Assembly (NCBI RefSeq): GCF_003610555.1
Contig: NZ_RAPQ01000011.1
Span: 186,001 to 250,000, forward strand
Source: Marinifilum flexuosum
GTDB taxonomy: Bacteria; Bacteroidota; Bacteroidia; Bacteroidales; Marinifilaceae
Reading direction: 5' to 3'
DNA length: 64,000 bases
Shown: one piece after another, positions 48,843 to 55,566 of the stretch
Numbering within the stretch: the stretch's first letter is position 1
Layout: each line of letters starts with the position of its first letter
The notes under the pieces: model-generated
What the model was told of the DNA's origin: nothing
The model's input: the letters and a program-made list of their open reading frames with translations, nothing else
Database searches by the model: none
Program-made: the position numbers and the translations under genes

Positions 48843-48874
48843 TTCGAGATTGTTATAAAAACTAAACATTGATT

Positions 48875-50044
48875 ATGAGAAAATTATCATTAATTCTGGT
48901 TATGATTTTGAGCGTTTCGGCTGTATTCGCACAAAAAAGTAAGGTTACCGGAGCACAAAACTTTCTTACTTCAGGTAAGTTAGATAAGGCTAAAGCAGCT
49001 ATTGATGAAGGAATTAAGCATGAAAAATGTGTAAACTATCCTAAAGCATACCTTGTAAAAGGTAAAGTTTACCAAGGAATTTTTGAGAGTCCACTTCCTG
49101 CATATAAAGATTTGGCTAAAAATCCACTTGATGTGGCTTTTGCTGCTTATATTAAAGCTTTAGAATTGGATGAAAAAGGAAAAATGGTTAAACCTGTAAA
49201 AGCACAGATGACTAATATGATTCCTGATTATACCAATGAAGCTGTAAATCTTTATAACGAAGGAGACCATGCTGGTGCATTGGCGGCTTTTGAAAAAGTA
49301 TTGGAGATTGAAGCGATGGATATGTTTAAAGATAATCCTGTGGTAGATACTGCAGTTATTTTTAATGCAGGTATGGCAGCTCAGAAAGCTGAAATGTATG
49401 ATAAAGCTATTAAGTATTACAAGCAATCTATTGATTACAATTACGGTGGAGCTAAATCATATGCTAATTTGGCAAATGTTTTAAAAACAAACGGTAATGA
49501 AGTAGAAGCAGTTAAATATCTTCACAAAGGTTTTGAATTGTTCCCAAATGATTCTTGGATGTTAGTTGAGTTAATTAACTACTATATGTTAGGAGGAGAG
49601 CCTCAAAAAGCTGCTGATTACCTTGATAAAGCCATTGCTTTAGATCCTAATAATGGTTCTTTCTATCGCGCAAAAGGTACTTTATATGAAAAGACTAAAG
49701 AACCAGCAAAAGCTGAAGAAATGTACATTAAGGCTTTAGAGTTAACTCCAGATGATTATACATCTCAGTATAACCTAGGACTTTTAAAGTTGAACGCAGC
49801 AATTGCTAAGCACAAAGAGGCTAATGAAATCATGGATGCTAAAAAGTACAATGCAGCAATTAAGGTTGTTTATGCAGAGTATGAAAAAGTAATTCCATAT
49901 TTTGAAAAAGTTCTTGAAATGCAGCCAGATGAGAAAAACTCATTGATTACTTTGAAAGAATTATATTTCAAACTTAGAAACGAAAACGAAGCTTATTTAG
50001 AAAAATACAACGAAGTGAAAGCTAAGTTGGACGGAATGGAATAA
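48875..50044 (+). CDS. Exported TPR protein (paralogue 1)
   Basis: A 389-residue protein with signal peptide MRKLSLILVMILSVSAVFAQ. TPR units fill the rest (YDKAIKYYKQSIDYNYGGAKSYANL, AADYLDKAIALDPNNGSFYRAKG, AEEMYIKALELTPDDYTSQYNLG; each cut short here as AIKYYKQSIDY, YLDKAIALDPNN, MYIKALELTPDD). It is closely similar to the next gene over its whole length, including the signal peptide and the KHEKCVNYPKAYLVKGKVYQ segment. TTG 48869 is a less likely start than ATG 48875. Likely periplasmic or outer-membrane scaffold; role unknown. Confidence 0.87.
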   Translation: MRKLSLILVMILSVSAVFAQKSKVTGAQNFLTSGKLDKAKAAIDEGIKHEKCVNYPKAYLVKGKVYQGIFESPLPAYKDLAKNPLDVAFAAYIKALELDEKGKMVKPVKAQMTNMIPDYTNEAVNLYNEGDHAGALAAFEKVLEIEAMDMFKDNPVVDTAVIFNAGMAAQKAEMYDKAIKYYKQSIDYNYGGAKSYANLANVLKTNGNEVEAVKYLHKGFELFPNDSWMLVELINYYMLGGEPQKAADYLDKAIALDPNNGSFYRAKGTLYEKTKEPAKAEEMYIKALELTPDDYTSQYNLGLLKLNAAIAKHKEANEIMDAKKYNAAIKVVYAEYEKVIPYFEKVLEMQPDEKNSLITLKELYFKLRNENEAYLEKYNEVKAKLDGME

Positions 50045-50061
50045 AATTTCTATATTGACAT

Positions 50062-50097
50062 AAAAAAGAGGGAAGCATTGTGTTTCCCTCTTTTTTT
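50062..50097 (+). terminator. Terminator between TPR paralogues
   Basis: GAGGGAA (50068-50074) pairs with TTCCCTC (50084-50090), with A and T runs extending the stem. Confidence 0.9.
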
Positions 50098-50135
50098 GTT
50101 ACATTTAAACATCATTAAGTTTAATTATAGAAAAC

Positions 50136-51305
50136 ATGAAAAAATTATCATTCATTCTGGTTATGATTTTTAGCGTTTCTTCTGTATTCGCACAAAAAAG
50201 TAAGATAACCGGAGCGCAAAATTATCTTACTTCAGGTAAATTAGATAAAGCTAAAGAAGCTATTGATGAAGGAATTAAGCATGAAAAATGTGTAAACTAC
50301 CCCAAAGCCTACCTTGTAAAGGGTAAAGTTTACCAAGGTATTTTTGAAAGTCCACTTCCTGTTTATAAGAGTTTAGAAAAAAATCCTTTGGATATTGCAT
50401 ATGCTGCATATTTAAAGGCGCTTGAGTTAGATCAGAAAGGGAAGATGCTTAAGCCTGTAAAAGCTCAAATGACCAATATGATTCCTGATTACACAAACGA
50501 AGCTGTTACTCGTTATAATGAAAAAGATTATGCTGGAGCTTTGGCAGCATTTGAAAAAGTTCTTGAAATTGAATCCATGAATTTCTTTAAAGACAATCAA
50601 GTTGTAGATACTATTGTAATTTATAATGCAGGTATGGCAGCTCAGAAAGCTGAGAAATATGATAAAGCAATTAAGTATTATAAGCAATCTATTGATTACA
50701 AGTATGGAGGGGCAAAAACATATGCATATTTGTCGAAGGTTTTAAAAGCAAAGGGTAATGAAAAAGAAGCTGTAGAGTATATTCAGAAAGGATTTGAGTT
50801 GTTTCCAAATGACTCTGATATGCTTGTTGAATTAATTAATTATTACATGTTTGGAGGAGAGCCACAGAAAGCAGCGGATTATTTAGATAAAGCGATTGCT
50901 CTGGATCCAAACAATGCATCTTTTTATAGCGCAAAAGGCCAATTATATGATAAAATGGGAGAGTTAGATAACGCCATCACCATGTATAAAAAATCAATAG
51001 AATTAGATCCAGAAGCGTTTATTCCTAGATATAATTTGGCCATTATTGTTTCAAATAAAGTTAGTAAGCATCATAAAGAAGTAAATGAAATTTTGGATGC
51101 TAAAAAATATAATGAAGCAATAAAAGAGGTTTATGCTGAGTACGAAAATGTTATACCATATTTTGAAAGTGCACTAGAAGTAAAACCAGGTGAGAAAAAC
51201 ATCTTGTTGATTCTGAAAGAAATTTATTTCAAGCTTAGAAATCAAAAAGAGGCTTACCTTGAAAAATATAATGAGGTTAAATCTCAATTGGATGACATAC
51301 AATAA
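50136..51305 (+). CDS. Exported TPR protein (paralogue 2)
   Basis: A 389-residue protein with signal peptide MKKLSFILVMIFSVSSVFAQ and the same TPR layout as its neighbour, by eye about three-quarters identical. Variation is concentrated in the middle repeat AKGQLYDKMGELDNAITMYK. The pair is a tandem duplication. It lies after a strong terminator, so it probably has its own promoter (TACATTTA near 50100 is a weak -7). A terminator follows. Function unknown; the conserved place behind gyrA suggests a core, not accessory, role. Confidence 0.87.
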   Translation: MKKLSFILVMIFSVSSVFAQKSKITGAQNYLTSGKLDKAKEAIDEGIKHEKCVNYPKAYLVKGKVYQGIFESPLPVYKSLEKNPLDIAYAAYLKALELDQKGKMLKPVKAQMTNMIPDYTNEAVTRYNEKDYAGALAAFEKVLEIESMNFFKDNQVVDTIVIYNAGMAAQKAEKYDKAIKYYKQSIDYKYGGAKTYAYLSKVLKAKGNEKEAVEYIQKGFELFPNDSDMLVELINYYMFGGEPQKAADYLDKAIALDPNNASFYSAKGQLYDKMGELDNAITMYKKSIELDPEAFIPRYNLAIIVSNKVSKHHKEVNEILDAKKYNEAIKEVYAEYENVIPYFESALEVKPGEKNILLILKEIYFKLRNQKEAYLEKYNEVKSQLDDIQ

Positions 51306-51422: not shown

Positions 51423-53132
51423 TTATTGCAAGTATTCTTGGAGTATTTGAATTAGTTTCCTTGGATCAATTGGTTTGGTTATGAAATTATCAGCGCCTGC
51501 ATGTAAACATTCTTCTCGTTCATTGTTCATTGCGTATGCAGTTTGTACAATAACAGGAATTGATTTATTTGTATCCTTAATCTGTTTAATAGCTTCCATG
51601 CCATCTATTTCAGGCATTCTGATATCCATTAGCACCAAATCAATTTTAGGATTGTTATCACGACAAATTTGGATTGCATCTTTTCCGTTTTTTGCCCATA
51701 CAACTGATGCGTCGGTTAATTCGATTATTGCATTTAAATAATTAAAGTTAGATCGAACATCTTCAGCTATTAGAATATTCTTTTCAGAAAAATCTAAATC
51801 GTTAATGGAACCAAGATTATCATTTGAGTTTGGCTTAGTATCATTTAGTAAATCCATCTGAACTCTACCATTGCCTGATAATCTGAAGTAAAAATTTGAT
51901 CCAACGCTTTCTTCTGAATCAAACCAGATTTCACCCTTCAACAATTGAATTAACTTTTTACACAAAGTAAGCCCTAATCCAAAACCTTCGAATTTTCTAT
52001 TGGCTTCATAATCCAGTTGTCGAAATACTTCAAATATATGTTTTTGTTTTTCCTTAGAAATTCCAATGCCCGTATCTCTTATGTAAAAAACTGGAATCGA
52101 CTTATCATCTATATAATACCCTAATTCAATATTGCCAGTATTGGTAAATTTGATAGCATTATCAACCAAACTATCCATTATTTGAATCAACTTATCACGG
52201 TCAGATTCAATCTGTACATCCTCAGAATTATTAGGAAATACCAATTTAAAATTTACTTGAGGCTTATTGGCGAGTTGAGAATTCAAATGTGCTTTTACAT
52301 CCCTTAAAGTTTCATTTATTTTAAAAGTTTTCAATGTGTAATTTAGTTGGTTTGAATCTATTTTTGATACATACAATAGATTATTAACCATCTTAAGCAG
52401 TTTACTGCTGCTATTCAGTATGTTATCAATAAATCCCTTCTGTTCTATGGGATTAATATCTTGATTTTTTAATAAATTTGAAAACCCAATTATTGCATTG
52501 ATTGGAGTTCTAAATTCATGACTGATATTTGAAAGAAATGCTGATTTTAATTCATTTGATTCTTCAGCTTCTTTCTTTGCCTTTTCCAACTCCTTCTGAG
52601 TCTTTGAAATTGTGATGAGATCAAGGATAGATTTTTCGTGAAACAAACACGCCTTTATTGAAATAGCAAATTTATTAATTACATTTTTAAGTTTCCTTTG
52701 TTCAATTTCATCCCACAGTTTGTCTTGGGCCGAAGAATACAATACAACAAACCCTAACTCCCGTAGTTTGTAGCAGGTGATAACACCTCTCTCCTTCTTT
52801 CTAAACCCAATTGCTTCTCTCGCCTCCATTGTTAATGGAATTGAAAAGGAATCCTTTTCTTCGAAACATTGATTTAAAAAATTAGAATCTTCTATATAAG
52901 TTTGCTCAAGTTTAATTTGTGGATGAGAATATATTACTGTATATCCAGTAGTTTTTGCTGAGTATGGAATACTATAATTTCGAATCCAAACGCCTCCAAA
53001 CTCTAAGTTTTTTCTTGACATCAAAGTTTGTAAGAAATTTTTACAGTTTTCTTTTCTATCAAGAGATTGTCCTACAGATAAAGAAAGTTCGTATAAAAAA
53101 GATATATCAGTAATTAAGCTATTTGTATTCAT
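51423..53132 (-). CDS. Hybrid sensor histidine kinase/response regulator
   Basis: A 569-residue soluble two-component protein. Residues about 1-175 look like a GAF-type sensor; HisKA has the phosphoryl site His205 in SNISHEFRTPINAI; HATPase_c carries SLVDNAIKFTN (N box), RDTGIGISKEKQ (G1) and FGLGLTLCKKL (G2); a receiver domain (about 450-569) has acceptor Asp503 in VLMDIRMPE and IAEDVRSN. No membrane helix, so it senses an internal signal. It begins 9 bases after the FIST gene, which very likely encodes its sensor input. No output regulator is nearby. Confidence 0.93.
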   Translation of the reverse strand: MNTNSLITDISFLYELSLSVGQSLDRKENCKNFLQTLMSRKNLEFGGVWIRNYSIPYSAKTTGYTVIYSHPQIKLEQTYIEDSNFLNQCFEEKDSFSIPLTMEAREAIGFRKKERGVITCYKLRELGFVVLYSSAQDKLWDEIEQRKLKNVINKFAISIKACLFHEKSILDLITISKTQKELEKAKKEAEESNELKSAFLSNISHEFRTPINAIIGFSNLLKNQDINPIEQKGFIDNILNSSSKLLKMVNNLLYVSKIDSNQLNYTLKTFKINETLRDVKAHLNSQLANKPQVNFKLVFPNNSEDVQIESDRDKLIQIMDSLVDNAIKFTNTGNIELGYYIDDKSIPVFYIRDTGIGISKEKQKHIFEVFRQLDYEANRKFEGFGLGLTLCKKLIQLLKGEIWFDSEESVGSNFYFRLSGNGRVQMDLLNDTKPNSNDNLGSINDLDFSEKNILIAEDVRSNFNYLNAIIELTDASVVWAKNGKDAIQICRDNNPKIDLVLMDIRMPEIDGMEAIKQIKDTNKSIPVIVQTAYAMNNEREECLHAGADNFITKPIDPRKLIQILQEYLQ

Positions 53133-53141
53133 TATTATAAA

Positions 53142-54239
53142 TTAATAAGCTAGTCCTAAAACAATCGATTTGTTTAGTAATTCCAAGTATCCTTCCCCAC
53201 TAGAGTATATTTCTCCTATAGATAACGCACCTTCCAATTCACAATGAGGAAATTTTGTAATCAGCTCATTGTTTAATGCTTCCAATTCTTCGTCAAATTG
53301 ATTTTGTAAATGTTTAACTCTTGATATACAGCTAAACATTATTGCAATTGGAGTACCCTTCGTTTCCACAAGACAATTGGAAATCATTATTTTTGAGATA
53401 CTTTCTAGCTGTTCTTTTTCAATAGCCAGAATATCAATTAATGAATTTTCAGGAATATTACCAACACATGTTATGTGACCATTTGGATTTACATCAAACG
53501 GATCACGTACAATGTAATCCCTTTCTTCCTTATAGATTCCAAATGGAAAATGAATTGAATGTGTTGAGAAATTTTCTTTTGTTAGATTAATGTTTTGAGT
53601 TTCCTTGAGACATTTTTTATATACTTCAAATGCATTTTCCCAGTTGAGCTCTTTAATTAAATTTTTTTCTGATTTGGTAACAATAAATGGACCTTCAGAC
53701 TTTTGCCATCCATGCTTTGAATCCATTCGAGTATTCGAATTTAGAAACACGACAATGGTTCCTGTGTTAAAGACTCCATCATTGGTTAATAAAATGCCTT
53801 TATCTTTGGTTTCTAAACAACCTACACCACCACCGAAAAAGCGAACGTTATTTCCTAAATGTGTAAATAAAGTGGTCAAATGATCAGATGCCTTTTCGGA
53901 AAGACCATCAATTAAAGTAAATGCCGTGGTGAATTTATGTTCGTGATAATCTGCATACTGATTTAAAAATTCCTCCTCAGAGTTGAAGTAAATTGGGACT
54001 ACATCCAAATTAATCATTTTAATGATTATACCAGTGTCGGATGTAAGATTTTTATAAATCACTTTAGGAAATACTCCACCTATGAATAAGTGTTTTGCTT
54101 TATTTAAGGAAAGTACTAGTTCCTCTAGGTTTAATTTACAGTTTTCCCCAATCAATAATAAAAATTGAGTATTATCAGAAACAGATAGTCTCTTTAAACC
54201 TTTAAGAATACTATTGATAGTAGGTTTTTCTAAATACAT
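53142..54239 (-). CDS. FIST-domain sensory protein
   Basis: A 365-residue cytoplasmic protein with a FIST N domain (about 20-205: FIGGVFPKVIYK, FGGGVGCLETKDKG, LLTNDGVFNTGTIVVFLN) and a FIST C domain (about 215-350: HSIHFPFGIYKEERDYIVRD, here FPFGIYKEERDY). FIST domains are thought to bind small ligands such as amino acids and occur beside histidine kinases and chemoreceptors. The hybrid kinase follows after 9 bases, so both act together. A -7 box TAATTTTG (plus 54277-54284) lies upstream. Confidence 0.88.
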   Translation of the reverse strand: MYLEKPTINSILKGLKRLSVSDNTQFLLLIGENCKLNLEELVLSLNKAKHLFIGGVFPKVIYKNLTSDTGIIIKMINLDVVPIYFNSEEEFLNQYADYHEHKFTTAFTLIDGLSEKASDHLTTLFTHLGNNVRFFGGGVGCLETKDKGILLTNDGVFNTGTIVVFLNSNTRMDSKHGWQKSEGPFIVTKSEKNLIKELNWENAFEVYKKCLKETQNINLTKENFSTHSIHFPFGIYKEERDYIVRDPFDVNPNGHITCVGNIPENSLIDILAIEKEQLESISKIMISNCLVETKGTPIAIMFSCISRVKHLQNQFDEELEALNNELITKFPHCELEGALSIGEIYSSGEGYLELLNKSIVLGLAY

Positions 54240-54356: not shown

Positions 54357-54394
54357 AAAAAAAAAACCGGTTTTTAAATTAAAACCGGCTTTTT
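54357..54394 (-). terminator. Terminator of fused adenylate kinase gene
   Basis: CCGGTTTT (54367-54374) pairs with AAAACCGG (54381-54388); T-run on the minus strand. Confidence 0.9.
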
Positions 54395-54396
54395 TG

Positions 54397-55566
54397 TTAT
54401 CTAATCTTTTTAAATGATTCTATTACAGCTTCACTAAGTCGATCCGCAACCAGATCTTCATCCCCAACTCCATCAACTAATTCTAGTTTATTTTGTTTCG
54501 AATAGTAATTACTCACTTTAGAACTTCTTTTTTCGTGTTGTTCCAATCGATGAATAATTATATCAGTATCGGCATCATATGCTCTTTTGCTCTGTGTTTT
54601 GCTTCGGGCTGTTAACCTTTTAATCGACTCCAAAGTAGGTACATTCAAACTAATAGTGGAAGTAACCGTAGATTGAAGTTTTCTAAGTAATCCATCCAAA
54701 ATATATGCCTGAACAATTGTTCTAGGAAACCCTTTAAAAATAAATCCGTTTGCGTCAGGATGCTTTTTGATTTGTCTTTCAATAAGTTTAATCGCAATTT
54801 CATCAGGAACTATATCTCCTTTCTCGATATAAGTTTTAGCACTTTTCCCCATTTCAGTTCCTTTCTTAATTTCCTGACGCATTAAATGTCCAGTTGAAAT
54901 ATAAACCAAGTTGAATTTTTCTGCTAATTTTCTTCCCTGAGTTCCTTTTCCTGATCCTGGAGGTCCAAGAAGAACTAAATTGATCCAAGATTTTTCAAGT
55001 GTTTGATCAATAACATTCGTTAAACGATCGAAAATTTGATTAATTCCACCTAATCCATCAATCCCATGATAGATTTCTTTTTCCTTATAAAAGTTAGCTA
55101 CTGGAGCAGTTTTGGTGTCATATTCTTGTAGTCTAACATTTATTACCTCTTCAGTATCATCAGGTCTGTTCTCTTTAGTTGCTCTATCAAGCAAACGATT
55201 GCGTAATTGATCCGTAGGAACTTCTAGGCTCAACATACAATCTAATTTCGTGTTCATTTTTAGAAGCAAACCTTCTAAAATATAGGCCTGTACTGTTGTA
55301 CGTGGAAAACCATCGAATAAAAAGCCCTTAACTTCGGTATTTGTTTTTATTCTCTCCTCAATAATTTGAACTATAATTTCATCCGGTACTAAACCTCCCT
55401 TTTTGATTATGTCTTTAGCTTGTAGGCCTAATTCGGTTCCTTCCGCAATTTCATTTCTTAGGATATCTCCAGTTGATATATATGCTAAGTTATACTTCTC
55501 AACCAGCATTTTAGACTGAGTTCCCTTTCCGGCACCAGGAGGTCCGAACAATGCAATGTTTAACAT
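54397..55566 (-). CDS. adk: Tandem-fused adenylate kinase (two kinase domains)
   Basis: A 389-residue protein of two adenylate kinase units; the normal enzyme has about 190-215. The first (1-190) is complete: P-loop GPPGAGKGTQ (8-17), STGD (31-34), DGFPRT (85-90), short LID RLLDRATKENRPDD. The second (about 195-389) has P-loop GPPGSGKGTQ (201-210) but STGH at 224-227 for STGD, KGFPRT (278-283) for DGFPRT, and a changed LID (SKTQSKRAYDAD). The catalytic Mg-binding Asp is lost, so the second half is probably not a normal kinase. It may be regulatory or bind another nucleotide. -7 box TAATTTTG at plus 55603-55610. Single-gene unit. Confidence 0.93.
   Translation of the reverse strand: MLNIALFGPPGAGKGTQSKMLVEKYNLAYISTGDILRNEIAEGTELGLQAKDIIKKGGLVPDEIIVQIIEERIKTNTEVKGFLFDGFPRTTVQAYILEGLLLKMNTKLDCMLSLEVPTDQLRNRLLDRATKENRPDDTEEVINVRLQEYDTKTAPVANFYKEKEIYHGIDGLGGINQIFDRLTNVIDQTLEKSWINLVLLGPPGSGKGTQGRKLAEKFNLVYISTGHLMRQEIKKGTEMGKSAKTYIEKGDIVPDEIAIKLIERQIKKHPDANGFIFKGFPRTIVQAYILDGLLRKLQSTVTSTISLNVPTLESIKRLTARSKTQSKRAYDADTDIIIHRLEQHEKRSSKVSNYYSKQNKLELVDGVGDEDLVADRLSEAVIESFKKIR

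Follow-up and report, generated by a model that had tools for sequence, protein, structure and literature searches.

A tandem adenylate kinase with an altered second half

The window analysed here is a stretch of 64,000 nucleotides from Marinifilum flexuosum (assembly GCF_003610555.1, contig NZ_RAPQ01000011.1, positions 186,001 to 250,000), whose minus strand carries a gene for a tandem adenylate kinase at 54397-55566, an open reading frame of 389 codons with an ATG start, encoding 389 amino acids and closed by a stop codon at 54397-54399. Pfam ADK (PF00406) matched each half of the protein over nearly the full model, with 174.5 bits for the N half (residues 1-192, 54991-55566) and 147.9 bits for the C half (residues 193-389, 54400-54990); both values are far over the cut-off of 26.8, thus a chance resemblance to ADK was ruled out. 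Identity between the two halves is 43.5%. An initial annotation of the window had described two consecutive nucleoside monophosphate kinase units with P-loops at residues 8 and 201, and these coordinates were right.

Translation and motif positions placed in the N half (all features on the minus strand) P-loop 1, GPPGAGKGTQ, at residues 8-17 (55516-55545), STGD at residues 31-34 (55465-55476; D33 of E. coli), DGFPRT at residues 85-90 (55297-55314; D84 of E. coli) and the LID motif RPDD at residues 134-137 (55156-55167). Every catalytic residue checked is present in this half, namely the P-loop Lys, D33, D84, R88, R119, R123, the LID R-x-D-D and R167. The C half has an intact P-loop 2, GPPGSGKGTQ, at residues 201-210 (54937-54966), and its alignment confirmed the changes that the annotation had noticed: STGH at residues 224-227 (54886-54897), where His227 replaces a Mg-site Asp; KGFPRT at residues 278-283 (54718-54735), where Lys278 (codon AAA, 54733-54735) replaces a Mg-site Asp; and the LID motif RAYD at residues 328-331 (54574-54585), where Tyr330 replaces the first LID Asp. 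The window C half is thus D33H, D84K and D158Y in E. coli numbering, with the Mg-site D84 and the LID D158 both replaced. Adenylate kinases use Mg2+ via such acidic residues, and sites 33 and 84 of the ordinary enzyme are two acids with Mg2+.

We compared these positions in 124 distinct two-domain genes (hereafter doubles) and 45 single-domain genes (singles) aligned to E. coli Adk. These are the 169 domain sets left from 184 after identical ones were dropped, the copies L001, L003, L005, L006 and L007 having been excluded beforehand; an earlier residue table held 92 of 93 doubles, L075 having been dropped as its N half is cut by a contig end. The two alignments differ on the placement of LID residues, and all figures given here come from the alignment of 124 doubles and 45 singles. 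Position 84 is Asp in all 124 N halves and all 45 singles; in the C halves it is Lys in 121, Asn in two and Asp in one. Similarly, the LID R-x-D-D is found in every N half and every single, while 123 of the 124 C halves have Tyr158 and as many have Asp159. Position 33 is more variable: D (112), E (9) and N (2) in the N halves; K (35), S (27), E (20), H (17), A (10), Q (9) and others (6) in the C halves. The summed charge at positions 33 and 84, counting His as neutral, is +1 or +2 in 102 of the 124 C halves.

Much else in the C half has been kept. Q92, R119, R123, G85, P87 and D61 are invariant in all 124, and T31 (123), R167 (123), R88 (109), R36 (97, with Lys in 11) and the P-loop Lys (92, with Arg in 32) are retained in most. 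The mean conservation of nucleotide-contact positions was 0.86 against 0.60 for the rest of the C half (p = 2e-7), and 0.97 against 0.68 in the N half. Y94, I95 and G98, which single adk genes rarely have, are almost invariant (0.99-1.00) in the N and C halves alike. Conserved, selected replacement of catalytic residues, as found in the C half, is one mark of a pseudo-enzyme; judged by its sequence, this half is conserved in an altered form and is not decaying. The description of the protein as one active and one pseudo-kinase half thus holds for an N half with intact residues and a conserved, altered C half, and the residues suggest, for each half, the activity or loss of activity that it was assigned.

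An AlphaFold prediction (79 sequences), run on the window protein from residue 2 on (54397-55563), gave a mean pLDDT of 89.2 and a pTM of 0.57, with the pLDDT of the C half no worse than that of the N half. The predicted C half superposed on the solved adenylate kinase 5ycb_B with a Z of 29.1 and an rmsd of 1.2 over 185 residues, so in the model the C half has the adenylate kinase fold. The Foldseek list also contains two chains of the sperm axoneme structure 9fqr.

Origin, selection and spread of the double family

In a FastTree phylogeny of 294 sequences the 124 N halves formed one group (0.85) and the 124 C halves one clade (0.98), the two being sisters (0.82). A fast IQ-TREE run on 76 sequences, from which the adk-like frame L150 (166 residues) was excluded, supported the C clade (97.6) and the grouping of N and C halves (97.2), the C halves there being nested, weakly, among the N halves. 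The C clade and the joint grouping are therefore stable in both trees, and the sister or nested placement differs between them. Among doubles of the window's type, the two closest pairs gave a dN/dS of 0.011 and 0.021 in the C half and 0.014 and 0.024 in the N half; a close pair of the other type, described below, gave 0.019 (C) and 0.016 (N). These values indicate that both halves are under purifying selection in the closest pairs.

When named genomes were scanned with a profile of the C half, 457 relatives were confirmed, and the best 80 loci were kept. The two-domain frame was present in all 80, although L075 lacks the first P-loop at a contig end; the protein is complete in 78, always with 386-390 amino acids. 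Since these 80 were picked partly by a pattern containing FKGF, which favours K84, a fairer set is that of the 48 doubles detected by Pfam ADK; K84 is present in 45 of them, and the K84 result is thus independent of the bias of the pattern. Among the best 80 of the 457, most record titles read Marinifilum, Labilibaculum, Ancylomarina, Lentimicrobium, Salinivirgaceae, or give no more than Bacteroidales or Bacteroidetes; ten are metagenome-assembled genomes titled Sabulitectum, Fermentibacteraceae, Krumholzibacteriia or, in one case, Gemmatimonadales, non-Bacteroidota labels that come from the record titles alone. The genomes behind eight of these ten loci were searched, and in seven a full-length single ADK gene accompanies the double; in the remaining one (G225, completeness not given) the double stands alone. 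Within the flank examined, hpt lies near 49 of the 80 doubles, obgE near 33 and both near 32, so that many doubles occupy the site where M. flexuosum has its single adk; in L054 and L083 the gene row is hpt, double, single, obgE. Three other frames of 384-408 amino acids (L118, L121 and L129, in G155, G202 and G053, respectively) have one C-terminal ADK domain, and their genomes also carry a double; the N-terminal part of these frames is presumably HPRT, and they are probably HPRT-Adk fusions.

The midpoint-rooted tree of full-length doubles comprises groups of 26 and 98. The smaller includes the second double of M. flexuosum and the ten with non-Bacteroidota titles, and every C half in it has an Arg in the P-loop and a changed Arg36 (K in 11; D, E or Q in 15). 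The larger includes the window gene, and the P-loop Lys is kept in 92 of its members. K84 is found in 26 of 26 and 95 of 98, respectively; its presence in both groups makes it probably older than their split, a conclusion that depends on the root. A few members are less altered. The C half of L123 (G102, contig C17) keeps both D33 and D84, with T, C and D at LID positions 156, 158 and 159 and an Ile at the AMP-binding Arg88; a single adk lies just downstream of this double. L144 and L145 have Asn84. L123 is the first C branch of the domain tree (0.97 for the rest), but falls inside the group of 98 in the full-length tree; L144 and L145 branch first within that group in the full-length tree and are placed differently in the domain tree. 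The C half of L123 may preserve the condition that preceded K84, but its position inside the larger group in the full-length tree makes a reversal also possible.

Eight single adk genes from the window's own family (L013, L014, L016, L018, L019, L022, L024 and L031) have no hpt or obgE within ~1.5 kb. Beyond each other, L013 and L014 are nearest to the N halves of doubles (58-60%). These eight singles may descend from doubles by loss of the C half, or represent a line from before the fusion; FastTree and IQ-TREE place them differently.

A whole-genome Pfam search of M. flexuosum found five ADK domains in three genes: the window double, a second double and one single. The single encodes 201 amino acids with the usual motifs and sits between hpt and obgE. 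The second double (388 amino acids) lies on another contig, C2, at L006:8278-9438, and the gene after it encodes a protein with a DGC domain (PF08859). In its C half the P-loop Lys is changed to Arg, STGD to ATGQ and the AMP-binding Arg36 to Asp; it is 58.6% identical to the window double in the N halves and 46.1% in the C halves. The initial annotation had entertained the idea that the window gene might be the only adk of the genome, and this is ruled out by the second double and the ordinary single. The essential enzyme with a built-in second domain that would have followed does not apply to this genome; it does apply to the family. In an evenly drawn sample of 198 Bacteroidales genomes, each at least 90% complete, 53 had at least two ADK matches and 50 at least one double, doubles per genome being counted by hand: 17 have one double only, eight have two doubles only, and 25 have one or more doubles with at least one single. 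Thus in 25 of the 198 no ADK-domain gene was found beside the double or doubles, although at this completeness a single adk could have been missed in a given genome; an enzyme taken as essential carries a built-in second domain there. G005, of the window's own family and 95% complete, has one double and no other ADK gene was found in it. The three genomes with two ADK matches each but no complete double are G104, G185 and G190, the second match of G185 being a contig-end fragment that could belong to one.

Surroundings of the window gene

Just 3' of the stop codon lies a hairpin (54367-54388), a probable terminator between this gene and those for the FIST and histidine kinase proteins. The terminator scan returned 2 terminator-like sites where 1.3 would be expected by chance, and scored the hairpin on the plus strand only; the ten A at 54357-54366, on its far side, would make a T run for the minus strand, so that the transcript of the tandem adk probably ends at its own terminator. 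Upstream of the gene is a DUF7670 gene; downstream, the interval 51423-54239 holds a FIST-domain gene and then a hybrid histidine kinase gene with HisKA, HATPase and receiver domains. In 11 named Marinifilaceae loci the double adjoins the DUF7670 gene in 10 and has a FIST gene nearby in 6, the FIST side of L043 being lost to a contig end. Further along (48869-51305) is a tandem pair of similar plus-strand genes of 391 and 389 amino acids, the second of which matches TPR families.

A plasmid or phage origin of the tandem adk was without support from either protein or DNA searches. Protein matches in 20 phage and 217 plasmid records were all below 60% identity; among the matches listed (10 of the 20 phage and 15 of the 217 plasmid records) the span was that of a single adk, each being matched by both halves of the query. 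At the DNA level, the plasmid search gave nothing beyond 135 bases matching in Clostridioides around the second P-loop (12 records, 5 listed).

A possible role for the C half and its relation to known systems

We propose that a single ancient duplication, with fusion of the copies, left an active kinase joined to a conserved pseudo-kinase half, which would bind adenylates without Mg2+ and tune the active half; we set the probability of this reading at about 0.5. One duplication with an in-frame fusion would have produced the two-domain enzyme, of which the N half would be the working part that interconverts ATP plus AMP and 2 ADP. The C half would have become a pseudo-kinase, presumably losing catalysis as its Mg2+-placing Asp changed to Lys and its first LID Asp to Tyr. 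Its P-loop and phosphate-binding arginines were retained, as was the AMP pocket in the window's type. The C half may then bind adenine nucleotides in the absence of Mg2+, with the lysine supplying the charge that the metal otherwise brings, and close with little or no turnover; through the fixed-length junction it could tune how active or how stable the N half is. The positive charge at positions 33 and 84 would suit a nucleotide phosphate bound without metal, and a regulatory or sensor role of the C half is plausible.

Several results weigh against this proposal. Nucleotide binding appears doubtful in the C halves of the group of 26, with their P-loop Arg and changed Arg36, and the loss of the Mg-site acid is not universal, given L123 with both aspartates and L144 and L145 with Asn84. 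More distant pairs gave a dN/dS of 0.027-0.069 in the C half and 0.011-0.032 in the N half, with dS saturated or undefined, and the mean root-to-tip path is 0.91 for C halves and 0.64 for N halves; the C half thus evolves faster over long times and is less constrained than the N half. The pTM of the model leaves the relative placement of the halves unfixed, so that it offers no interface behind a coupling. Finally, an ordinary adk is also present in this genome.

Part of this evidence would fit a C half that serves as a structural partner only, a fused subunit replacing a homodimer contact and stabilising the N half, with no ligand-dependent role. The near-constant length of the 78 complete named doubles agrees with such a partner, as does the group of 26, which keeps the domain and K84 despite its changed P-loop and Arg36; near-fixed Y94, I95 and G98 are what a shared contact would be expected to leave, although they may just predate the duplication. 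We nevertheless consider it rather unlikely, as the nucleotide-contact positions of the C half are on average the more conserved ones and Q92, R119 and R123 are never lost. Those same catalytic arginines, together with the P-loop Lys of 92 C halves and two residues swapped to Lys and Tyr and then held, could instead point to a C half that is still an enzyme with altered chemistry, be it metal-independent or slow phosphotransfer or another acceptor. This we find improbable: D84 and D158 are Asp in every single and N half compared, adenylate kinases depend on such residues for Mg2+, and Q92 and T31 presumably point to adenine as the acceptor, not to a new one.

That the double is a redundant paralogue heading to decay, with the ordinary adk doing the work, would fit a genome with two doubles and a single, a set found in M. 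flexuosum and eleven others (G001, G002, G009, G011, G012, G014, G015, G070, G120, G196 and G204). It is largely contradicted by the selection and sole-gene data, that is, by a dN/dS of 0.01-0.02 in both halves of the two closest pairs, by a single C-half clade with a wide spread and by the 25 genomes in which only doubles were found, and we hold it to be very improbable.

Taken further, the proposal of a pseudo-kinase half that tunes its neighbour would mean that 50 of the 198 genomes of the order carry an adenylate kinase that has a built-in adenylate sensor independent of Mg2+, a twin with a lysine in place of the metal, that 25 of the 198 have no other adenylate kinase to rely on, and that the double with both aspartates may record an intermediate; we offer this wider view tentatively, as somewhat doubtful. 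Adenylate kinase serves as a textbook example of conformational dynamics. The family, if so interpreted, would show a housekeeping enzyme that has naturally gained an internal regulator, many of its members occurring next to hpt and obgE, the place of the ordinary gene; its members range from less to more altered ones. It also suggests that a name of just "adenylate kinase", as assigned by family models, hides the second domain.

A bacterial adenylate kinase is normally a single small domain. Among the papers listed by the literature searches none reports this tandem adenylate kinase, which is weak evidence as most subscription papers lie outside their coverage; an article on prokaryotic adenylate kinases (PMC12492129) contains none of the word stems Bacteroid, duplicat, tandem, fusion and two domains.

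Both halves belong to the family of the ordinary bacterial short-LID adenylate kinase (PF00406; e.g. PDB 2cdn, 3cm0), on solved members of which the predicted C half superposes; solved adenylate kinases (e.g. 1zin) are likewise among the structural matches of the predicted window N half. The ordinary enzyme is one unit, whereas the window protein has two in one chain, the C half without Asp84 and the first LID Asp. Eukaryotic AK5 and AK8 resemble it in architecture, with two adenylate kinase domains per polypeptide; AK8, like AK5, is described in the review PMC10056885 as having two active domains. The window protein differs from them in a second domain that, by its residues, is incomplete, with near-fixed D84K and D158Y. 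The probable HPRT-Adk fusions of the same order are also fused adk genes, but with one ADK match, and doubles often adjoin hpt. Protein pseudokinases such as the JH2 domain of JAK2 are likewise altered in their catalysis and joined in one chain to an active twin; their fold and substrates are unrelated to those of adenylate kinases. The likeness of the tandem adk to JAK2 JH2 lies in an altered twin beside an active kinase, with regulation in the adenylate kinase being a proposal.
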